DNA from: a virus | Reading direction: 5' to 3' (one strand) | DNA length: 20,635 nucleotides | Virus record (IMG/VR): IMGVR_UViG_3300018044_000005 | Coordinates: 1-20,635 of that record | In this document: positions 6,727 through 17,199 of the stretch, piece by piece | Position numbering within the stretch: the stretch's first letter is position 1 | How the letters are laid out: every line of letters begins with the position of its first letter | Made by a program: the position numbers and the translations under genes | The notes under the pieces: generated by a model | Told to the model about the DNA's origin: nothing | Databases searched by the model: none | Seen by the model: only the letters and a program-made list of their open reading frames with translations

Positions 6727-7995
6727 ATGCCCAACACATTATTGACACCCACCATGATTACGCGGGAAGCCTTGCGGATTCTCCACAATAATCTGGTTTT
6801 TGTTAAAGGTGTTAATCGGCAATATAGTTCAGAATTCGCCATATCAGGAGCCAAAATAGGTTCGGTGATAAATATTCGCAAGCCGAATAAATATTACGTC
6901 AGAACGGGTCCGGCGATGCAGGTGCAGAACACCGCTGAAACCAGCGTGCCTTTAACCCTTAATAGGCAATGGGGCGTTGACGTGAATTTTACGTCCGCAG
7001 AATTAACGCTTTCATTGGATGATTTTTCCAAGAGAATATTGAGTCCTGCCATGGCGAAGATTTCTTCCCAGATAGACTTTGAAGGTCTTTCGCAGTTCGT
7101 CAATGTTTATAATCAGGTCGGCACTCCGGGAACTGCCCCGGGCGCAGGCGCGAGTAACGCGACCATTCTTTCGGCTTATCAGGTTCAGCCGGCTCTTAAT
7201 GCCGGAATGATGCTGGATTTGAATGCCGCCCCGAGGGACGAAAACCGCCGAGTGGTTTTGAATCCTTCCGGCATGGCATCCTTGGCAGGGTCTTTGACAG
7301 GTTTGTTCCAAGACTCCGGCCTGATCGCGGAGCAGTATAGAAAAGGTGTTTTGGGAACGGCGCTCGGTTTCGAGTTTGCCTTAGACCAGAACGTAAACAA
7401 CATTACCTGCGGTTCAAGGGCTGGAACCGTCGTGGTCAGCGGCAATAACCAGACCGGCTCGACAATTTCTCTGAGGGGCTTCACGGCCAATACGACCCTT
7501 AACCAAGGCGAGATTTTCAACATCACCAACGTCAACGGCGTAAACCCTGAAAACCAGCAGCTATGGAATTGCCCGGTGGCGACTTCCAACGGCAATATCA
7601 ATTTCGTCGTGACAGCGACCACCACGGCAGATGCCAACGGCAATATGCTGTCTCTGCCTATCTATCCGTCTATCACCTTGGCGGCGGCAGGACAGGCAAA
7701 CGGCACAGTCAATGCTCTGCCCGTAGATGGCGCGGCGGTCACTTTCGGTTCGGGAACTGCCAATACATCATACCCGATGTCGCTTGCTTATCATCAGGAC
7801 GCTTTCACTCTGGCAACTGCCGATTTGGAATTGCCTCAGGGCGTGGACTTTGCGGCGAGAGAAACTTACGACGGTATCTCCATGAGAATCGTCCGGGCGT
7901 TTGATATTACAAACGACCAATTCCCCTGCCGTATTGATGTTCTCGGTGGCTGGGCAACCCTGAGGCCGGAACTGGCTTGCAGGATTACGGGTTAA
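6727..7995 (+). CDS. P22-type major coat protein
   Basis: The 422-residue product is nearly the length of the P22 coat (430). The start MPNTLLTPTMITREALRILH, the blocks RQYSSEFAISGAKIGSVINI and QWGVDVNFTSAELTLSLDDF, and the SPAMAKISSQID segment are the usual opening of the P22 coat family (HK97 fold). The middle (residues about 225-340) is rich in Asn, Thr and Gly and corresponds to the region where the inserted domain of this family lies. The end returns to conserved text (DGISMRIVRAFDITNDQFPC and RIDVLGGW). An AAAAGGAGA site precedes the ATG. Many copies form the capsid shell around the scaffold. Confidence 0.92.
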   Translation: MPNTLLTPTMITREALRILHNNLVFVKGVNRQYSSEFAISGAKIGSVINIRKPNKYYVRTGPAMQVQNTAETSVPLTLNRQWGVDVNFTSAELTLSLDDFSKRILSPAMAKISSQIDFEGLSQFVNVYNQVGTPGTAPGAGASNATILSAYQVQPALNAGMMLDLNAAPRDENRRVVLNPSGMASLAGSLTGLFQDSGLIAEQYRKGVLGTALGFEFALDQNVNNITCGSRAGTVVVSGNNQTGSTISLRGFTANTTLNQGEIFNITNVNGVNPENQQLWNCPVATSNGNINFVVTATTTADANGNMLSLPIYPSITLAAAGQANGTVNALPVDGAAVTFGSGTANTSYPMSLAYHQDAFTLATADLELPQGVDFAARETYDGISMRIVRAFDITNDQFPCRIDVLGGWATLRPELACRITG

Positions 7996-8007: not shown

Positions 8008-9786
8008 ATGCCTTTAAAAATATTAACAGACGGTAATCCGGATGGTTCCTTGATCGGAGGTTCCGCTTCAGAAAAGATCGGTTTCTATGGAGCTGTCCCC
8101 TCGGCGCAACCGACAAATCCTTTTGAGGCTCAATCCGGAGCTTTCGGATTTGGTTCGGTTGTAACTTATTCGTCAAATAACTGCCCTTTAGCGAATATCG
8201 CAGTCAGCACTACCGCTAATCAGGCCAATTTGACGATTGAAAACTTTAACGTAGCCGGCGCGGTAGGTGTGAATGCCACACAGGAATTCATTGTCGGAAT
8301 TTCCAAAGCCACTACCGCAGCTAACGCCACAAACAATGTCGGCCTTTGCGGATGGAGACCTTCAGCGGCCAATACCGTTGACCTTCAGTTCGCCAATCCC
8401 AGCGGCGCTAACGGGAATATCGTTGCCAATGAGGTTCAATGGACGGTGGCAACGATAAGAGGCTTCCAGAATGCGATTCAGGTTGTCGCTTGCAATGCAA
8501 ACGCCAACTGCCCGACAAACGGCGCAAACTACGGAACCGTGGAAGTGATTTACACCCTCGTCGGTTCCGGCGCAACGGCAGTCGCCAATGTTTCCGGCAG
8601 CGGCCAGATAACAGGAATTCAGGTCACGAATTCCGGCTCCGGATATTTCACCGTCCCGACAGTTATAATCACAGCCCCGGCGAATGCGAATTACTCCGGC
8701 GTCACGGCAAACCAGCCGACCCTCCTGACAGGCACAGCGCTTCCATTCCCTGTTCCTGCCAATGGAACCGGCGCAACGGCGGAAGCGATTGTGAATTCCT
8801 CAGGCCAGATCATCAGCATTGTCGTTACAGACCCCGGCTCCGGGTATTTGGCGAGCGCGCCGCCGACTGTGACCTTCGGCGCGGCAACTTCGATTGCTCC
8901 GGGTCAGTTTGTCACCGGGCAGCCCAACGCCTACACCGCAGGTCTCGGCATCGGGAATATGCGCGTGGCCGGCAAGAACCAAATTGCAGTCCAGTATTTC
9001 AACTGCACAGGTGCCAACATTGCCATCCCCGCCGCGAACTATGCCTTTGTGGGATTGAGTTCGATGCCCGCGATAAGCCCGTTTATTACTATCCGGGCGA
9101 ATGTCACCGCCGCCAACACGACTGCGGCTGGCTCCGCTGCAAACTCAACCAACTACACGGTTCCCGGTTTGATGGCAAATGATGTCGGCATCGCTTCTTA
9201 TTCCGCCGCGATTCCGGCAGGCGCGAATGGGACAGCTTATATCCAGCAGCCCCCGGTTGCGGCGGCGAACGCATTTGCGGATGTCTATGTCGGTTCAAAC
9301 GTCGCCTCCAATAAAGCAGCCGGCGTTTATAGCTGGGTATTCATGCGCCAGCAGGCAAATGCTCCGATGATCGTGTTTCAGGCTTTTGTTTCCAACGCGA
9401 CAGCAGTCACCGCAGGAAACACGTCGGAACAGGTTTTCACCTTGCCTTCCAACATTACTTTAAGCTCCTCGAATAATGCGACGAATTTCAATGTCATTAA
9501 TTGCAACAAACCGTCGCACACTCCGGGGCTTTCGGTTGTCGGTTGCAGGGCAAACTCGAATACGCAGGTGGCCATTACGTATATGAACACTTCCAGCGTG
9601 AGCATCACGCCTCCGAATGAAATGTATACGTTTGCGTACTTCCCGACTCCGGCAGCAACCATTTCGGCAAATGTTTTGGCGTACCAGATTGTCCATCAGG
9701 CCGGCCCGACCTACTCGCAGCTCTGGCAGTTAGTCACAGAATTGCAGCAGTCGGCTCAGTTAATGGGCTTGATTAAGGGGTACTAA
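8008..9786 (+). CDS. Large Asn/Ala/Thr-rich beta-repeat virion protein (possible head decoration or fibre)
   Basis: This 592-residue protein follows the coat gene after a strong GGAGG site. It opens with DGSLIGGSASEKIGFYGAVP, a beginning seen in small phage virion proteins. Two copies of a beta module (GATA-V--GSGQI--I-VT--GSGY----PTV) lie at about 188-222 and 255-290; this module recurs in tail and head fibre proteins of many phages. A second type of repeat is visible at about 121-150, 323-352 and 518-547 (for example NQIAVQYFNCTGANIAIPAA against TQVAITYMNTSSVSITPPNE). The C-terminal 30 residues (SQLWQLVTELQQSAQLMGLI) are helical and may trimerise it. It has no signal peptide. I infer an external virion protein; its exact site on the particle is unknown. 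Confidence 0.7.
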   Translation: MPLKILTDGNPDGSLIGGSASEKIGFYGAVPSAQPTNPFEAQSGAFGFGSVVTYSSNNCPLANIAVSTTANQANLTIENFNVAGAVGVNATQEFIVGISKATTAANATNNVGLCGWRPSAANTVDLQFANPSGANGNIVANEVQWTVATIRGFQNAIQVVACNANANCPTNGANYGTVEVIYTLVGSGATAVANVSGSGQITGIQVTNSGSGYFTVPTVIITAPANANYSGVTANQPTLLTGTALPFPVPANGTGATAEAIVNSSGQIISIVVTDPGSGYLASAPPTVTFGAATSIAPGQFVTGQPNAYTAGLGIGNMRVAGKNQIAVQYFNCTGANIAIPAANYAFVGLSSMPAISPFITIRANVTAANTTAAGSAANSTNYTVPGLMANDVGIASYSAAIPAGANGTAYIQQPPVAAANAFADVYVGSNVASNKAAGVYSWVFMRQQANAPMIVFQAFVSNATAVTAGNTSEQVFTLPSNITLSSSNNATNFNVINCNKPSHTPGLSVVGCRANSNTQVAITYMNTSSVSITPPNEMYTFAYFPTPAATISANVLAYQIVHQAGPTYSQLWQLVTELQQSAQLMGLIKGY

Positions 9787-9793
9787 GTTTCCA

Positions 9794-9815
9794 AAGGGGG
9801 GAGCAATCCCCCCTT
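9794..9815 (+). terminator. 9-bp hairpin with GCAA tetraloop after the beta-repeat gene
   Basis: AAGGGGGGA (9794-9802) pairs perfectly with TCCCCCCTT (9807-9815) around the loop GCAA, a GNRA tetraloop. The hairpin lies 8 bases after the stop at 9786. The bases that follow (CAATAAAATT) are AT-rich but hold no U-run, so it may be a weak terminator, an attenuator that lowers expression of the sugar cassette, or an mRNA 3'-end stabiliser. Confidence 0.65.
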
Positions 9816-9817
9816 CA

Positions 9818-9833
9818 ATAAAATTCTGGGAGG
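9818..9833 (+). promoter_or_regulatory. ATAAAA-N-TCTGGGAGG translation-initiation block, copy 2
   Basis: ATAAAAT followed by TCTGGGAGG lies six bases before the glycosyltransferase ATG and directly after the GCAA-loop hairpin. Confidence 0.5.
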
Positions 9834-9838
9834 AAGAT

Positions 9839-10570
9839 ATGAAGAAGACGATTTACACTTTGGCATTGAAGGGCTACGCACCGGATTTAATAGCCGTAAC
9901 ATTTCAACTCATGAGGGCTTATGCCCGAAAAATCGAGGCGGATTTTGTGGTCATAGAAGAACGGAAATATCCCGACAGATACCCGACCTACGAGAAGTTT
10001 CAGATATGGGACTTAATGAAAACCAGAAATGATGATTGGTCTATCTTTTTCGACGCGGACACCATGATTCATCCGGATTTCGTTGATGTTACCGCTATGC
10101 TTCCGAGGGACACCACCTGCGCGGGTTATTCCAATGACTTTACGCCCATGCGGTTCCGGCCTGACGTTCCGTTTTTGAGGGACGGAAGATTTATCGGGAA
10201 AGGCACATGGTTTATTATTTGTTCCGACCTGACGAGGGATATTTGGCAGCCGGTGGAGCTTTCAGACCTGACTTACGAGCAATGCGTGGAAAATATTTTC
10301 CCGACCAATGACGAGATTGTTAAAATCAAAAAGACTCCGGAGAGTCTGATTGATGATTACGTCGTTTCGAGAAACATTGCAAGGTTCGGCCTGAAGCACA
10401 CCGTCCTCTCGGAGCTGTTTCCGAAATTTAACTGCCCGATAGGAATTGAAACCGTACAGGCCACGCAGAAAATTATCAGCCCGTTCCTTCAGCATGACTA
10501 CAACCGGCCTCTCGATCAGAAATTGATCTGGACGGAGCAGATTTTAAGGATGTGGGGGGTGACGCTATGA
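9839..10570 (+). CDS. Glycosyltransferase-like protein with DxD motif
   Basis: The 243-residue product shows the pattern of GT-A-fold transferases: an N-terminal beta-alpha unit, KYPDRYPTYEKFQIWDLM (residues 43-60), and then DWSIFFDADTMIHPDF (66-81), where D72-A-D74 is the DxD metal/nucleotide-sugar site. A following FIGKGTWFII resembles acceptor-domain strands. No membrane segment is seen, so it would be cytosolic. It is preceded by the TCTGGGAGGA site and its stop overlaps the next gene as ATGA. The next two genes are a nucleotide-sugar SDR and a radical SAM enzyme, supporting a role in making a glycan or decorating a protein. The sugar and acceptor cannot be told from the sequence. Confidence 0.75.
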   Translation: MKKTIYTLALKGYAPDLIAVTFQLMRAYARKIEADFVVIEERKYPDRYPTYEKFQIWDLMKTRNDDWSIFFDADTMIHPDFVDVTAMLPRDTTCAGYSNDFTPMRFRPDVPFLRDGRFIGKGTWFIICSDLTRDIWQPVELSDLTYEQCVENIFPTNDEIVKIKKTPESLIDDYVVSRNIARFGLKHTVLSELFPKFNCPIGIETVQATQKIISPFLQHDYNRPLDQKLIWTEQILRMWGVTL

Positions 10571-11442
10571 AGATACTAGTCACCGGACACAACGGTTTTA
10601 TCGGGAAGGCGCTCATAAAGGCGCTGAAAAACGGACTTTTAGCAGATCATCATGCCATCCTTGATGATACGGACATAGTAACCCTTCCCTGCGATGTCAG
10701 GGATATTGATGTGGACAACGTGAAATTGAAAGTGGACAGGATTTATCATCTTGCCGGCACTCCCTCGCCTGTGAAATACAAGATCAATCCGACCAAAGTT
10801 TTGATGTCGAGCATTCAGGGGACCTATAAAGTTCTCGAACTGGCCAAAAAATGCGGCGCAAGGGTGCTTTTCACGTCCACAATCAACACGGACGCCTATT
10901 ACCCGTCGAGAAATTCTCGTTCCTGCTATGTTGACGGGAAAAAGGTTGCCGAAGATTTGTGCTATCTTTACAGCAATGAGGTTGACGTGAGGGTGGCCAG
11001 ATTGTTTTCGACCTACGGAGTCGGCATGAAGCTCGATGACGGGAGGGTTATCCCTAATTTTATCGTGAAAGCTCTCAAAAATGAGGAAATTACGATTTTC
11101 GGGGACGGAACACAGGTGGATTCTTTTTGCTACATTAACGATATGGTTCAGGCCCTACATTCCTTCATGGAAACCGAGGACAATCCGAACCGACCTATCG
11201 AGCTAGGAAACGCCTTGGTTACAGGGGCAAAAGGCATTACCACGATCAAAGACCTTGCCGAACAGATAATCGAGCTTTGCGAATCGAAATCGCCCATCAA
11301 CTACGTCTCTTTCTCGGGATTAGATAAGGAACGAATCCCCAATGTGGCTTATGCTTCCAAGATTTTAAAGTGGACGCCCGGGGTCTCGCTTTCTGCGGGA
11401 TTGAAGGAAACGATTTGTTCCTTCAGGGAGGCGATGCTATGA
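10567..11442 (+). CDS. Extended SDR, UDP-glucuronate decarboxylase-like nucleotide-sugar enzyme
   Basis: I take the ATG at 10567 (ATGA overlap) rather than the ATG at 10552, because it puts the beta strand MKILVTGHNGFIG at the N terminus. GHNGFIG (residues 7-13) is the NAD-binding glycine motif. YHLAGTPSPVKYKINPTK (60-77), ARLFSTYG (144-151), LDDGRVIPNFIVKAL (156-170) and SFCYINDMVQ (186-195) closely follow UDP-xylose synthase-like enzymes. The catalytic pair is Y121 and K125 (YVDGK). The position that is Glu in TSTSEVYG of that family reads TSTIN here, so the usual decarboxylase/dehydratase acid seems to be missing and the exact reaction is uncertain. Length is 291 residues. It is coupled to the genes on either side. 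Confidence 0.8.
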   Translation: MKILVTGHNGFIGKALIKALKNGLLADHHAILDDTDIVTLPCDVRDIDVDNVKLKVDRIYHLAGTPSPVKYKINPTKVLMSSIQGTYKVLELAKKCGARVLFTSTINTDAYYPSRNSRSCYVDGKKVAEDLCYLYSNEVDVRVARLFSTYGVGMKLDDGRVIPNFIVKALKNEEITIFGDGTQVDSFCYINDMVQALHSFMETEDNPNRPIELGNALVTGAKGITTIKDLAEQIIELCESKSPINYVSFSGLDKERIPNVAYASKILKWTPGVSLSAGLKETICSFREAML

Positions 11443-12422
11443 GAACTTTGGTCAGCATGGACACGATTCAGATTGAAATAACGAATGCCTGCCCGAGAAA
11501 CTGCGCGAACTGCACCCGTTTTGTCAATCACACCCCGAAGCCCTACATGATGGACTTTGAAACTTTTAAACAGGCCGTGGATTCGATGGTCGGTTATCCG
11601 AAAATGACAGGAGTTATGGGAGGCGAGCCCTTACTACATCCTGAGTTTGAAAAGATGTGCAATTACCTGCACTCTAAGATTCCTCCCAGACAAACCGGGT
11701 TGTGGACTTGCCTCCCTCCCAAAAAAGAGCATTACCGGGACGTGATCGTGGAGACCTTCGGCAACATCTTTATCAATGATCATTCCCGGGACGACATCAT
11801 GCACCATCCGTTTCTGGTTTCCGCAGAGGAAATTAAGGACATTGACCGATGGGTTAAGTGGATAATGATTGATTCATGCTGGGCGCAGCTCTCTTGGAGC
11901 GCTTCGATCAATCCCCATGGAGCGTTTTTCTGCGAGATCGCGGCGGCGCTTTCCATGCTTCTCAATAAAAATGCGAAGGATGGCTGGAAAGTAGAGCCCG
12001 GATGGTGGATTCGGACGCCTAAGGACTTCACCGGCCAGATGGAAAAGTATTGTATGCTCTGCGGCGGTGCAATGCCCCTGAAAAAGAGGGTTTCTACGTC
12101 AATAAAGGACGAAATCAGCCCTTTAATGCTGAAAAAGATCAGGAATTATTCGCCAAAAGTAAAAAGAGGGGAATATGACGTTTCTGAATGCGTTTTATGT
12201 CAGGACGATTCTCCCATGGCGACTTACAAAGACCCGAGATACAGAGAAGCCATCGCTGCGAGATACGGACTCTATACGATGGAAAACGATTTGCATTTTT
12301 TAACACCATTTTTATCAAAATCTTGGAAAGGAGGACAGAAAAATGACTTGGAACAGTCCTACTCCGGCGAACCAGCGTCCGGGGAACAAAAAGGGGAATG
12401 CCCCGCACCCTGCGAACACTAA
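11439..12422 (+). CDS. Radical SAM protein with extra C-terminal cysteines
   Basis: The start at 11439 overlaps the previous stop (ATGA) and has AGGGAGG upstream; a longer frame from 11370 lies inside the previous gene and is rejected. CPRNCANC (residues 18-25) is the CxxxCxxC site that holds the SAM-cleaving [4Fe-4S] cluster, and MGGEPLLHPEF (60-70) is the GGEP motif. Further cysteines at 147, 165, 205, 208, 251 and 254 could bind an auxiliary cluster, as in SPASM or Twitch proteins. The blocks WSASINPHGAFFCEIAAAL and YCMLCGGAMP resemble radical SAM proteins found in polysaccharide gene clusters. 327 residues. The last 27 residues are read from DNA that also encodes the next gene. Target unknown; a sugar or protein modification is likely. 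Confidence 0.85.
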   Translation: MRTLVSMDTIQIEITNACPRNCANCTRFVNHTPKPYMMDFETFKQAVDSMVGYPKMTGVMGGEPLLHPEFEKMCNYLHSKIPPRQTGLWTCLPPKKEHYRDVIVETFGNIFINDHSRDDIMHHPFLVSAEEIKDIDRWVKWIMIDSCWAQLSWSASINPHGAFFCEIAAALSMLLNKNAKDGWKVEPGWWIRTPKDFTGQMEKYCMLCGGAMPLKKRVSTSIKDEISPLMLKKIRNYSPKVKRGEYDVSECVLCQDDSPMATYKDPRYREAIAARYGLYTMENDLHFLTPFLSKSWKGGQKNDLEQSYSGEPASGEQKGECPAPCEH

Positions 12423-12504
12423 AAAAGGGTTTGATCAGGGTTATGGCTATGCTGAGTTTTCAAAAACAAAAGTCGGCATCGGCAAAGACAAAAAGAAAAG
12501 CTAA
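12343..12504 (+). CDS. Small basic Asn/Pro/Lys-rich protein overlapping the radical SAM gene (53 aa)
   Basis: A near-ideal AAAGGAGG site lies seven bases before the ATG at 12343, inside the end of the radical SAM gene but in the +1 frame. The 53-residue product begins MTWNSPTPANQRPGNKKGNA, has the middle FDQGYGYAEFSK, and ends KDKKKS. It is basic, without Cys, and probably flexible. The 80-base overlap with the upstream gene is long for phage genes. It opens a run of tiny basic genes. I see no known family. A peptide substrate for the radical SAM enzyme is conceivable, but nothing supports it beyond adjacency. Confidence 0.6.
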   Translation: MTWNSPTPANQRPGNKKGNAPHPANTKKGFDQGYGYAEFSKTKVGIGKDKKKS

Positions 12505-13385: not shown

Positions 13386-14123
13386 ATGTCTTTTTTAACC
13401 AGCGCCGACATCGTAAAGTCGGCCATGCGGATAATCGGAGCCATCGGGAAGTCTGAAGTCCCGACCAACGATGAAATGATGGACGGGTTGCAGGCGTTAA
13501 ACCTCATGCTCGAACTATGGTCTGCCCGGAGATTGATGGTTAGAGGCACGATTCAATTTTCCAATATCCTTACGGCTGGGAAATATTCTTACACGATAGG
13601 GACAGGCGGGAATTTCAATACGCTGAAGCCGGTGGACATCACTTCCGCCTTTCTCCGGGACGCCAATAATATTGATACGGGTCTGGACATCATTTCGAGG
13701 GAAGAATACGATTCTTATGGAGACAAGATGATCACGTCTTCGAGACCGATTGCCCTCTGCTATGACGCCGGAGCCGCGCAGCAGGCGTCTCAGATGGGAA
13801 CGGTTCTGTTTTACTATACCCCGGACGCTTCGATTGCCTATACCGTATTTATGCAGATGCAGGTTCAGCTCACCGACTTTTCAAATTTAACTTCGCAGGT
13901 CACTTTTGAAGCCAAGTATGGCGAGGCCATGAAGTACGAGCTGGCGATCAGGTTGTGGCGGGAATACCATGAATCCGACAAGCCTATCCCGGAGGATATA
14001 AAAGTTCTCGCGGCAAGGGCGATGTGCGTCATCGAAAAGACAAATCATGAACTGCCGAGGGCTCAGGTCGAAGTGCCTCCGAGAAAGAGCGTGTTTAATA
14101 TTTATACGGGAGATTATCAGTAA
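13386..14123 (+). CDS. P22 gp4-like tail accessory / head-completion protein
   Basis: The 245-residue product has the hallmarks of the P22 gp4 family: an N-terminal helix MSFLTSADIVKSAMRIIGAI, the DEMMDGLQALNLMLELWSAR block (residues 29-48) and the C-terminal FEAKYGEAMKYELAIRLWRE helix, ending with NIYTGDYQ. P22 gp4 is the first factor added under the portal after packaging and starts the tail platform (166 residues in P22; this form is longer by a beta-rich insertion, residues 55-160, common in distant relatives). It shares one base with the gp10-like gene (TAATG), matching P22 gene order 4-10. Confidence 0.88.
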   Translation: MSFLTSADIVKSAMRIIGAIGKSEVPTNDEMMDGLQALNLMLELWSARRLMVRGTIQFSNILTAGKYSYTIGTGGNFNTLKPVDITSAFLRDANNIDTGLDIISREEYDSYGDKMITSSRPIALCYDAGAAQQASQMGTVLFYYTPDASIAYTVFMQMQVQLTDFSNLTSQVTFEAKYGEAMKYELAIRLWREYHESDKPIPEDIKVLAARAMCVIEKTNHELPRAQVEVPPRKSVFNIYTGDYQ

Positions 14124-16351
14124 TGAGGATTCCTTTCATCGGTCCTACATACGCTTCCCGCAGCAATAATATTGCCGTGGATAGGAGCATAAATTTCTAT
14201 CCTGAAATTAATCAGGAAGATTCAAAGGATGTTGTCTCCCTGATCGGGACGCCGGGGACTCAGTATTTTACAGGGACGGGGGCTTCCGTGGTCAGGGAAA
14301 TGCACGCCTTTAACGGATTGATGTATGTCGTGATCGGGAATTCTCTTTATTCGGTGAATACCGGGGGAGTTTATTCAGTCGTCCTCGGAACTTTGCAGAC
14401 CTCAATTGGCAGGATTTCCATGGCGGACAATGGGCTTGCTTCCAACGGGCTTGGAGGGAATCAGCTCGCCATTGCGGATGGAACCGCTTTTTATATCTAC
14501 AATGTTGTCTCAGGAGTTTTTTCTACAACGCTAACCACGATTTCGGCTCCATGGACGGGCGCGCCGACCCATGTTATTTTTCTGGATGGGTACTTTATCG
14601 TGACGATAGGCAATTCCATGATCTCCTACGCTTCCAATCTTTTCGACGGGACGACATGGGGTTCTCTGGCTTACGCGCAGGCGACTTCCTCAAAAGATAA
14701 TCTGAAGACTGTGGCTGATCTGTCAGAGCAAATCTGGTTCATAAAGCAGAACACGTCGGAGTGCTGGTACAATAACGGCGTGGCCACCGCAGTCGGATTC
14801 CCTTATTCGAGAGTGGCCGCAGGCGTCATTGACGCGGGGACTCCCGCCGAGTGGTCTGTGGCAAGGATGCAGAGCAGTCTCTATATGCTGGGGTGCGTGA
14901 GGAATAACGAGCAGGGAGAAATGATCGGGATTTGTCAGTTAACAGGCGGCTCAATCAGCGTGGTTTCCCCGGTGGCGATAAATTATCAAATTAGCCAATG
15001 GCCGAGGCTTGACGATGCGTTTGGGTATTGTTATTCGGAAGGCGGGCATAGTTTTTACGTTCTGACATCGCCCTCTGCAAACCAGACCTTTGTTTATGAC
15101 GCCACTACCCAGATGTGCCACGAAAGATCAACTTATTCCAATAATCCTTACCAGATAAACAGGCACATCAGTAATTGTTATTGTTTTTTCAACAACAATC
15201 ACTACGTCGGAGATTGGCAAAGCGGAAATATCTATAATATGTCTTCGAGCATTTACACGGACAATGGGCAGCCGATTATCAATATCAGGCAGGCGCAGCA
15301 TATTTCAGATAAGAAATCCCTGAACAATCTGTTTTTCAGTCGGCTTATTATTGACGCTGAAGGCGGCCCGCCCGGAGTGACCGGAACCGGAGGCTTTTAC
15401 AACATCAACATCCCGGCTTATAATTCAGACCCTTACTTGGCTTTCTTGGCTCATTTTGACGGGACAAACGGGCAAACAACGATGACTGATTCATCATTTA
15501 ACAACTATCAAATAACTCCGGTTGCCAATGCTCAGTTAGGTACGGCATGGAAGGAATTTGGGACAGCATCGCTACTTTTAAATGGCTCAACTGATTATGT
15601 TTATATCCCTGCCAATGCTGTAAATGTAGGTACAAACGATTGGACGATTGATTATTGGATGTACCCAAAAAGCATATCGGCCAATATGTCCATGTTTTCA
15701 CAGGTTCTTAATTCAGGGAATCATGTTTCTTTCTATTGCCAAGAAACAGGCACAAAGGGTCTTTATTTCAATTCTAACACAGGCGGTTTGCCCGGTCCTT
15801 ATTATGGCTGGCCTTGCACAATAGCCGTGAACAATCCTTACCATGTCGCTTTTGTTTGCCATAATGCGAGTTTGCTGGCTTTTTTAAATGGGAATTTACT
15901 AACTCCAAATATATATCAATTCTATATATCATCGGTTTTTTCAAATGCCTCTTTCTTAATAGGAGGCGGCGACAGCGTTTACGGTCTTTTGCCATTCAAC
16001 GGGAACATTGACGAGTTCCGAGTTTCTCTTGGCATCGCCCGGTGGACTGCAAACTTCACTCCGCCGACCTCCGCCTATCCCTATACGTACAATGCGCCCT
16101 ATACGGAAACCTTACAGACCACGACCAACACTCCGTACTGGCTGAATTCTCAGGCTCAACTTTCATGGTCGAATGATGGAGGGCATACTTGGTCAAACGA
16201 TTATCAGGCGTCGGTGGGAGCAATCGGACAATACAAAACACGTCTCATTTGGAGGCGGTTAGGCTATGCCAGAGACAGGGTTTTTCGGGTGGCTTTCAGC
16301 GAGCCGACAAAAACGGTTCTGATCGGAGCAGTTATGGAGGGCGGAGAATGA
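14123..16351 (+). CDS. P22 gp10-like DNA-stabilisation tail protein with inserted LamG-like domain
   Basis: The N-terminal 435 residues follow the P22 gp10 family (MRIPFIGPTYASRSNNIAVD, RSINFYPEIN, IGTPGT, FLDGYFIV, IWFIKQNTSECWYN, SVARMQSSLYMLG, WPRLDDAFGYCY), with beta-propeller-like repeats. The typical C-terminal block is also present (LSWSNDGGHTWSNDYQASVG, then YKTRLIWRRLGYARDRVFRV) at 680-732. Between them, at about 436-652, sits a concanavalin/LamG-like domain (LAHFDGTNGQTTMTDSS, LLLNGSTDYVYIPA, WTIDYWMYP, FNGNIDEFRVSLGIARWTAN). P22 gp10 has 472 residues; this has 742, and the difference matches the insert. gp10 binds below gp4 and closes the channel after packaging. The LamG part probably binds sugars. 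The stop overlaps the next start as ATGA. Confidence 0.9.
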   Translation: MRIPFIGPTYASRSNNIAVDRSINFYPEINQEDSKDVVSLIGTPGTQYFTGTGASVVREMHAFNGLMYVVIGNSLYSVNTGGVYSVVLGTLQTSIGRISMADNGLASNGLGGNQLAIADGTAFYIYNVVSGVFSTTLTTISAPWTGAPTHVIFLDGYFIVTIGNSMISYASNLFDGTTWGSLAYAQATSSKDNLKTVADLSEQIWFIKQNTSECWYNNGVATAVGFPYSRVAAGVIDAGTPAEWSVARMQSSLYMLGCVRNNEQGEMIGICQLTGGSISVVSPVAINYQISQWPRLDDAFGYCYSEGGHSFYVLTSPSANQTFVYDATTQMCHERSTYSNNPYQINRHISNCYCFFNNNHYVGDWQSGNIYNMSSSIYTDNGQPIINIRQAQHISDKKSLNNLFFSRLIIDAEGGPPGVTGTGGFYNINIPAYNSDPYLAFLAHFDGTNGQTTMTDSSFNNYQITPVANAQLGTAWKEFGTASLLLNGSTDYVYIPANAVNVGTNDWTIDYWMYPKSISANMSMFSQVLNSGNHVSFYCQETGTKGLYFNSNTGGLPGPYYGWPCTIAVNNPYHVAFVCHNASLLAFLNGNLLTPNIYQFYISSVFSNASFLIGGGDSVYGLLPFNGNIDEFRVSLGIARWTANFTPPTSAYPYTYNAPYTETLQTTTNTPYWLNSQAQLSWSNDGGHTWSNDYQASVGAIGQYKTRLIWRRLGYARDRVFRVAFSEPTKTVLIGAVMEGGE

Positions 16352-17199
16352 AGCTTGTACCGATTTCTGATATTTCAATCATAAAAACGCTTTTAGGGAA
16401 TGCCGATGTAGCCAATCTTTCCGTAAGGGAACAGATAGACGTTATCGAAAAGTCCATGCTTCAATATCCACAAGAGGAAATCCCTGTGAAGCATAGTTTT
16501 TCCAGCGGGATTTACGCGAGAGAAATTTTAATTCCTAAAGGAACGCTTTTGATCAGCAAATATCATAAATTTGAGCAGATAGATTTCATGCTCTATGGTG
16601 ATCTCTCAGTCGTTACAAGCAACGGCCTTTTAAGAATTAAAGCGCCTTTCGTCGGAGCGTCCCATCCGGGAATGAAAAGATTAGGTTATGCCCATGAAGA
16701 TACTCTATGGATTGATGTCCGGGCTGTAAATGAAACAAATATAGAGCATCTTGAAAAAATCATGTATTGCGACACGTTTGAGGAACTGGAAGAATTTGAA
16801 AGCAGAAACCAGAGGCTTGATTTTGAAAAAATGCTTATCGAATACAACGTCCCCTTCAGCTTGGTTCAAGCTCAATCGAACAACACGGAGGATTATGTGG
16901 AAATGCCTCTGGATAAGGTGAAAATTATTGATTCAAAGATAAGCGGCAAGGGGCTCTTTGCCGTAAAACCTATTAGAGATCAAGAAATTATTATGGCGGC
17001 GAGAGTAAAAGAAATGAGGACGCAGGCCGGTAAATTCACAAATCATTCGTCCAATCCTAATGCCCAGATGGAAATTAGAGAGGACGGAAATATCTATTTG
17101 GTGGCGATAAGAAACATTTTTAAAGAGGAAATAACCGTTAATTACAGACAATGCCTCGAATTATTGGGGGTAAAAAAGGAGTTATTATGTCAGCAATAG
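16348..17199 (+). CDS. Cupin-like and SET-domain fusion, probable protein lysine methyltransferase
   Basis: The ATG at 16348 overlaps the gp10-like stop (ATGA), with GGCGGAG upstream; the longer frame from 16189 lies inside that gene. The 283 residues form two parts. Residues 45-130 (YAREILIPKGTLLISKYHKF, LYGDLSVVTSNGLLRIKAPF) look like a cupin barrel. Residues 193-270 carry the SET signatures: SKISGKGLFAVKPI (196-209, SAM-site glycine motif), FTNHSSNPNA (230-239, NHSxxPN) and EEITVNY (260-266, with the catalytic-type Tyr). SET proteins transfer methyl groups from SAM to lysine. The DNA is more AT-rich than its neighbours, which suggests acquisition. The target is unknown: virion protein or host protein. 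It overlaps the next gene by 13 bases. Confidence 0.8.
   Translation: MKLVPISDISIIKTLLGNADVANLSVREQIDVIEKSMLQYPQEEIPVKHSFSSGIYAREILIPKGTLLISKYHKFEQIDFMLYGDLSVVTSNGLLRIKAPFVGASHPGMKRLGYAHEDTLWIDVRAVNETNIEHLEKIMYCDTFEELEEFESRNQRLDFEKMLIEYNVPFSLVQAQSNNTEDYVEMPLDKVKIIDSKISGKGLFAVKPIRDQEIIMAARVKEMRTQAGKFTNHSSNPNAQMEIREDGNIYLVAIRNIFKEEITVNYRQCLELLGVKKELLCQQ

Follow-up and report, generated by a model that had tools for sequence, protein, structure and literature searches.

Glycosylation of the particle has been described in few tailed phages; the default assumption for a phage glycosyltransferase is usually that it acts on DNA or on the O-antigen. Where phages do change the O-antigen through gtrABC-type glucosylation, a membrane flippase and enzymes for a polyprenyl-linked donor are needed. 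The nearest phage precedent for the locus analyzed here, a three-gene cassette in a stretch of 20,635 nucleotides from a virus (IMG/VR record IMGVR_UViG_3300018044_000005, positions 1 to 20,635; hereafter, the window), is the O-glycosylation of mycobacteriophage virions. According to a paper that cites this work, capsid and/or tail proteins are decorated by a phage-encoded enzyme (Freeman 2023, cited in PMC11652166); this is a demonstrated precedent for decorating the virion of a tailed phage but, unlike our cassette, no radical S-adenosylmethionine (SAM) enzyme or short-chain dehydrogenase/reductase (SDR) is described as a partner in that citation. The nearest functional parallel is A064R of PBCV-1, in which glycosyltransferase domains are joined to a sugar-methylating domain and which acts on the major capsid glycan (PMC9614988). 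From the sequences and structure models described below, we lean toward the view that the cassette, which encodes a glycosyltransferase (GT), an SDR and a radical SAM enzyme (rSAM), is a module that glycosylates a virion protein with a tailored, possibly keto, sugar.

The three genes of the cassette are:

9839..10570, plus strand: GT, a predicted GT-A fold glycosyltransferase of 243 amino acids (ATG at 9839, TGA at 10568-10570, Shine-Dalgarno sequence GGGAGG)
10567..11442, plus strand: SDR, an extended nucleotide-sugar SDR of the NAD-dependent epimerase/dehydratase superfamily, 291 amino acids (ATG at 10567, TGA at 11440-11442)
11439..12422, plus strand: rSAM, a radical SAM enzyme with a predicted twitch-type auxiliary cluster domain, 327 amino acids (ATG at 11439, TAA ending at 12422, Shine-Dalgarno sequence GGGAGG)

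A first-pass annotation of this DNA described three genes joined by ATGA overlaps; its coordinates are exact, and both the GT/SDR and the SDR/rSAM junctions are ATGA overlaps. The list of open reading frames (ORFs) contains earlier GTG starts at 10552 and 11370; homologs nonetheless align from the ATGs. The same annotation considered the set a complete small pathway, which overstates the case, as no gene in the window supplies an activated sugar.

The cassette lies within a P22-like head module, as assigned by the portal (PF16510), scaffold (phrog_8865), and coat (PF11651) genes, which occur in order. Across the window, the gene order is TerL, portal, scaffold, coat, p592, GT-SDR-rSAM, small ORFs, gp4-like, head-closure, and ejection-type genes. 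The operon is therefore found between coat/p592 and gp4, in a slot defined by these genes:

6727..7995, plus strand: P22-type coat protein, 422 amino acids (PF11651, E = 1.2e-35; phrog_283, E = 7.9e-78); anchor of the insertion slot and a candidate acceptor
8008..9786, plus strand: p592, a Ser/Thr/Asn-rich beta-repeat protein of 592 amino acids; main candidate acceptor from its weak PHROG virion matches, composition, family alignment, and association with GT
13386..14123, plus strand: gp4-like head-completion gene (phrog_12985, E = 1.2e-33; weak match to the head-tail adaptor phrog_637), the far border of the slot in our slot analysis

To describe this slot, we counted its contents in 62 P22-like contigs in which coat and gp4 were both in view, scoring p592 only when full-length. 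Here and below, the sample consists of fragmentary metagenomic contigs obtained with pattern-seeded searches, and counts are among the matches listed. In 43 of the 62 contigs neither GT nor p592 was present, and the gap between coat and gp4 had a median of 369 bp; the cassette is thus an insertion that breaks the normal succession of coat and gp4, as had been proposed. Both p592 and GT occurred in 11 contigs, p592 only in three, and GT only in five (odds ratio 31.5). Of the three slots with p592 only, two (L183 and L185) contain GT2 enzymes unrelated to our GT, in one case with a hexapeptide transferase, which suggests that glycan enzymes have been acquired repeatedly beside p592. The check suggested in the first-pass annotation, whether the three-gene set travels with the beta-repeat protein, was borne out in part: p592 and GT are strongly associated, but the five GT-only slots led us to reject an obligate pairing, and the set itself is not fixed. 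The description of p592 as an Asn/Thr-rich neighbor was accurate, since its Ser+Thr (18.1%) and Asn (10.3%) contents are the highest among the window proteins; the coat is also rich in these residues (16.1% and 9.0%). The slot is also an endonuclease site, with HNH_3 endonuclease genes directly downstream of coat in three P22-like contigs (L192:9251-10144, L211:6893-7624, and L230:1787-2542).

One explanation is that the coat-gp4 site tolerates insertions and collects mobile accessory genes that share no function. The HNH endonuclease genes within the slot, together with a GIY-YIG endonuclease that interrupts the cassette elsewhere, would fit such a site. We consider this highly improbable, because the genes are under strong purifying selection (dN/dS, the ratio of nonsynonymous to synonymous substitution rates, was 0.03-0.08 for GT and rSAM against the relatives L006 and L007 where dS was measurable), the operon order is conserved, glycan enzymes appear to have entered the slot repeatedly and independently, and the catalytic residues are intact in 84/84 GT and 72/72 rSAM relatives.

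Outside the P22-like group, major head proteins prevail among the families encoded upstream of GT. Among 50 records from other lineages, a head protein could be located in 22. In 20 of these, no more than 5 kb separated GT from the gene for the major capsid protein (8.3 expected), in 16 no more than 2.5 kb (4.9 expected), and in 19 GT was downstream of the capsid gene on the same strand (combined p = 0.003). In other contigs, GT precedes genes for Gly_rich_2 or tail-fiber-like proteins. According to the first-pass annotation, finding the cassette at random places with no tie to virion genes would have spoken against a role in the virion. What we found is the opposite: GT is near the capsid genes of several unrelated lineages or beside tail-fiber or Gly_rich_2 genes. 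A tie to virion genes across phages is what is expected of a phage virion glycosylation system, and gene order together with co-occurrence provides an argument, across many uncultured phages, that a virion protein is the substrate. The proposed virion glycosylation system therefore gains support from gene order, and we continue to infer it rather than to claim it as established.

GT has no family match in Pfam, PHROGs, or NCBIfam. Searches of PDB sequences with the GT sequence and with a GT profile found no relative, and a search of isolated phage records returned one partial match of 31% identity. We built a structure model from an alignment of 84 viral relatives (mean predicted local distance difference test score, pLDDT, 96.3). 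Foldseek comparison of the model with the PDB gave 122 matches at E ≤ 0.001, of which those listed are GT-A enzymes. The best solved match was 2p6w, PBCV-1 A064R (E = 3.5e-6, template modeling (TM) score 0.50), STIV A197, likewise a viral GT, was fifth, and many GT-A enzymes followed; TM scores of ~0.45-0.5 indicate the class of the enzyme and not orthology. In BFVD, the matches were phage GT34/GT8-type proteins. As to CAZy family GT34, there was no Pfam match, and in fold the model resembled A064R and a xyloglucan xylosyltransferase at TM scores of only 0.50-0.51. One motif is central to the assignment:

10052..10060, plus strand: DxD motif of GT (D72-A-D74), predicted metal and nucleotide-sugar site; D72 and D74 are present in 84/84 relatives

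Other polar residues are also invariant in all 84 relatives. As judged from the sequences and the model, the GT protein is soluble, belongs to the GT-A type, and has a DxD motif that does not vary, and the relatives form an unclassified GT family for which a high-confidence model is now available. Like A064R, it is a virus-encoded soluble GT-A enzyme with a DxD motif, and a methyltransferase is joined to A064R as it is to many phage relatives of GT. The two differ in that A064R is from a eukaryotic virus, contributes to an N-glycan of many sugars, and has no radical SAM partner; identity is ~10% at a TM score of ~0.5.

The company that GT keeps varies. Among 87 contigs with GT, rSAM is nearby in 51, and the third place is taken by an SDR, by a Methyltransf_24 protein, or by the two together, or is empty. 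In all 55 contigs that carry both GT and rSAM, rSAM is downstream on the strand of GT, most often next to it or separated from it by a single gene. In 13 relatives GT is fused to Methyltransf_24, and none of these has rSAM in its neighborhood. We therefore rejected a fixed three-gene set; GT and rSAM are the core, and the third gene is exchangeable or absent. Distances among GT proteins correlate with those among rSAM proteins (Mantel r = 0.43, p = 0.0005; after thinning, r = 0.29, p = 0.001), from which it follows that GT and rSAM are partly inherited together. GT was found in 211 viral contigs and in eight contigs of a genome collection of 84,980 species, several of the eight being phage-like by gene content, while rSAM was found in 1/380 and 0/369 sampled bacterial genomes. 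GT and rSAM thus form a linked, phage-enriched mobile unit beside capsid or tail-surface genes. Five contigs have a GIY-YIG homing-endonuclease gene inserted after GT and before rSAM, assigned by a Pfam match in L037 (L037:2512-3321) and as related ORFs in L035, L053, L102, and L108.

A different target for the unit would be the host surface, with lipopolysaccharide, capsule, or another envelope glycan altered to block superinfection or re-adsorption and the late-gene position serving only expression. Published authors have assigned phage glycosyltransferases to changes of the O-chain; a paper on pelagimyophages mentions radical SAM cassettes and makes this assignment for their GTs (PMC7029224). 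GT-methyltransferase relatives also occur among polysaccharide genes in two chromosomes of candidate phyla radiation (CPR) bacteria, and these fusions support glycan chemistry. One, in L176, a contig of a metagenome-assembled genome (MAG), has UDP-GlcNAc 2-epimerase and GT2 genes nearby; in another CPR MAG contig, L173, which carries a GT-Methyltransf_24 fusion, three tandem GT copies are followed by a Gly_rich_2 protein.

Despite these points, modification of the host surface seems unlikely to us. All three proteins are soluble, and the cassette contains no transmembrane, flippase, or polyprenyl-linked partner. Phage gtrABC and our cassette are both phage-borne GT modules, but the cassette lacks the flippase and polyprenyl-linked enzymes and is placed in the capsid slot. 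The polytopic membrane proteins of gtr-type O-antigen conversion were absent from the three window proteins (maximum 19-residue hydropathy 0.98 for GT, 0.80 for SDR, and 1.29 for rSAM), and no transmembrane helices were detected in 84 GT and 72 rSAM relatives, in which 19-residue hydropathy never exceeded 1.8. Moreover, an enzyme set for the host surface would not be expected to insert beside capsid genes in several unrelated lineages or to be associated with p592, and GT and rSAM are rare in sampled host genomes. In the papers searched, a virion module made of GT and rSAM was not described.

The rSAM protein matches PF04055 (E = 4.6e-7, 30.6 bits against a cutoff of 29.5) and contains the CX3CX2C motif of the radical SAM superfamily. 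Seven of its cysteines are invariant in 72/72 relatives:

11490..11513, plus strand: CX3CX2C (C18, C22, and C25), predicted ligands of the SAM cluster
11877..11933, plus strand: C147 and C165 (CX17C), predicted auxiliary-cluster cysteines
12051..12062, plus strand: C205 and C208 (CX2C), predicted auxiliary-cluster cysteines

A SPASM domain is defined by a seven-cysteine motif for two auxiliary clusters (PMC6231123). Because a later CX2C in the window protein (C251 and C254) is not conserved among relatives, leaving just four invariant auxiliary cysteines, we rejected SPASM membership; by this definition, rSAM is a twitch enzyme with one predicted auxiliary cluster. The structure model (pLDDT 92.6) best matched SpeY (E = 4.9e-8), whose PDB entry title describes a twitch radical SAM dehydrogenase, followed by BtrN (E = 1.3e-5), which oxidizes an aminocyclitol alcohol, yielding a ketone, and whose auxiliary cluster is of the four-cysteine kind (PMC9012708). 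The phage enzyme resembles SpeY and BtrN in its twitch fold and in having a SAM cluster and one auxiliary cluster site (four-cysteine in BtrN); these two dehydrogenate sugar-like rings in antibiotic pathways and are only 14-16% identical to it. As the nearest folds are dehydrogenases, the leading candidate for the chemistry of rSAM, by analogy, is dehydrogenation of a sugar carbinol. A search of isolated phage records gave no match to rSAM.

In a tree, GT-linked and GT-less rSAM enzymes separate. Thirteen GT-less rSAMs of a distant branch (L127-L149) are encoded downstream of a gene for a protein of 300-340 amino acids (phrog_3742, with a weak protease-like match) and are followed, in the cases that could be resolved, by a PF19821 capsid gene. 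These phages have the head-tail connector PF12236, and GT2 genes are present in some of the fragments. The position of this branch directly upstream of capsid genes is consistent with another possibility, that rSAM modifies a virion polypeptide by oxidation, epimerization, or cross-linking and that GT glycosylates the same protein, the sugar not being the substrate of rSAM. Many SPASM/twitch enzymes do modify peptides (PMC6231123). We regard this as quite unlikely, since in fold rSAM comes closest to SpeY and BtrN, which are dehydrogenases of small carbohydrate molecules, and not to sactisynthases, the 327-residue model shows no additional domain for peptide recognition, and another member of the GT-less branch (L150) adjoins a GT2 gene.

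Two observations concern the 3′ end of rSAM. A 53-amino-acid ORF with a strong Shine-Dalgarno sequence (window positions 12343-12504) begins within it in another frame and is also found in L004; the rSAM tail that it overlaps is modeled as disordered. In L004 itself (L004:5631-6857), the rSAM match is ~246 nt longer than that of the window, which suggests an insertion or a frame disruption near the C terminus.

The SDR matches PF01370 (E = 2e-31), and its closest solved family is UXS (profile against human UXS1, 4gll, E = 2.9e-76). Two positions are of interest:

10927..10941, plus strand: catalytic Y121-x-x-x-K125 of the SDR, retained in the alignment and in a survey of relatives
10885..10887, plus strand: N107 of the SDR, which replaces Glu at the UXS Glu120 position (from the 4gll alignment, the residue table of PMC12820599, and the survey of relatives)

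Like UXS1, the SDR keeps the NAD motif (TGHNGFIG) and YxxxK, but it has Asn107 in place of the signature Glu120, a residue (human numbering) common to UXS, ArnA, UAXS, and the archaeal UXS Mth373 (PMC12820599). The position is occupied by N, D, R, H, K, or another residue in the cassette SDRs of relatives, with L108, which keeps Glu, the clear exception; the off-cassette viral SDRs L164, L166, L167, and L169 retain Glu120. The QxR motif has become QxD in cassette SDRs. The equivalent of UXS Arg277 (in KRKPD) is kept in our SDR (KERIPN) and is not evidence against UXS. On the basis of Asn107, we rejected UXS activity. The label "UXS-like" is thus apt for the fold family and not for the catalytic residues, and the protein is, by sequence, a nucleotide-sugar-type SDR of undefined reaction. 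Of the three proteins, it has also diverged most between close relatives: identity between the window and L006 is 54%, compared to 86% for GT and 80% for rSAM.

Some phages carry nucleotide-sugar SDRs apart from any such cassette, and phage GTs can glucosylate DNA. Both facts would suit a cassette that makes a soluble sugar metabolite or modifies nucleic acid as a cargo unrelated to the virion. We find this improbable, given the persistent pairing of GT with rSAM and their location near capsid or tail-fiber genes. In addition, the T4 DNA glucosyltransferases are GT-B enzymes, unlike the predicted GT-A enzyme of the cassette.

In the reading we favor, glycosylation of a virion protein, GT would act late in infection in the host cytoplasm, moving a sugar from a host-made nucleotide sugar to a surface protein of the virion, either onto its Ser/Thr (or Asn) side chains or onto a first sugar that it bears. 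The acceptor would most likely be p592 and otherwise the coat: p592 is the first candidate because it is Ser/Thr/Asn-rich, has beta repeats, and is associated with GT, and the coat is the second because in several phages coat and GT have nothing between them. An exchangeable enzyme would tailor the sugar. In the window this would be the SDR, by oxidation/reduction (epimerization or keto chemistry) of the nucleotide sugar or, less likely, of the bound sugar; in other phages it may be a methyltransferase. Before or after transfer, rSAM would work in the manner of BtrN in the butirosin pathway: it would take a hydrogen from a sugar carbinol and pass an electron to the auxiliary cluster, leaving a keto sugar. 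As a result, the surface of the particle would be harder to recognize or would have altered adhesion. A broader version is possible and we offer it tentatively, as it may well not hold: tailed phages of several unrelated capsid lineages would share a mobile module in which glycosylation of virion proteins is followed by radical SAM oxidation that turns the bound sugar into a keto sugar, and the exchangeable SDR or methyltransferase would give a phage-specific glycan. In either form, a radical SAM enzyme would join GT as a likely glycan-tailoring partner. If rSAM does oxidize the sugar, the particles would display a reactive keto sugar, which hydrazide labeling could detect directly, and radical chemistry would be used to build the glycan of a virus particle.

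Several points weigh against glycosylation of the virion. The Fisher p value for the association of p592 with GT, 2e-6, is too small, as the slot counts come from related contigs (L005 and L006 are nearly identical) and not from independent events, and five P22-like contigs have GT without p592. No capsid gene was recognized in 28 of the 50 other-lineage records, and the capsid neighborhood could reflect late transcription and not the substrate. The fold matches of GT speak to class, as noted above; the relatives in two CPR chromosomes indicate that the family can serve cell-surface glycans; and, as SPASM/twitch enzymes often act on peptides, the substrate of rSAM could be a protein.

The remaining observations concern the surroundings of the cassette. 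A possible attenuator or terminator precedes it:

9787..9836, plus strand: G+C-rich RNA hairpin between the p592 stop and the GT start, identified by its folding energy

The hairpin has a folding energy of -20.6 kcal/mol (z = -2.24) in the window and is present with a different sequence in the two close relatives L006 (-24.8, z = -2.85) and L007 (-15.4, z = -1.39). A promoter/terminator scan of the window did not call it a terminator and gave nothing clearly above shuffled sequences. The hairpin may lower expression of the cassette relative to the structural genes. As to the host, a 3.2-kb contig (L170) from a betaproteobacterial MAG has ~98% protein identity to phage L006, a weak hint of the host group that could reflect binning contamination. 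Downstream of gp4, in the same virion module as the sugar cassette, a head-closure (Hc3-like) protein (14123-16351) has, at residues 487-634, a lectin-like domain of the Laminin_G_3 family (E = 8.2e-15). It is followed by a 336-amino-acid protein (16189-17199) with PHROG "tail fiber adhesin" matches, the C-terminal third of which resembles, by eye, a SET-type domain (GKGLFAVKPI...NHSSNPNA...EEITVNY).

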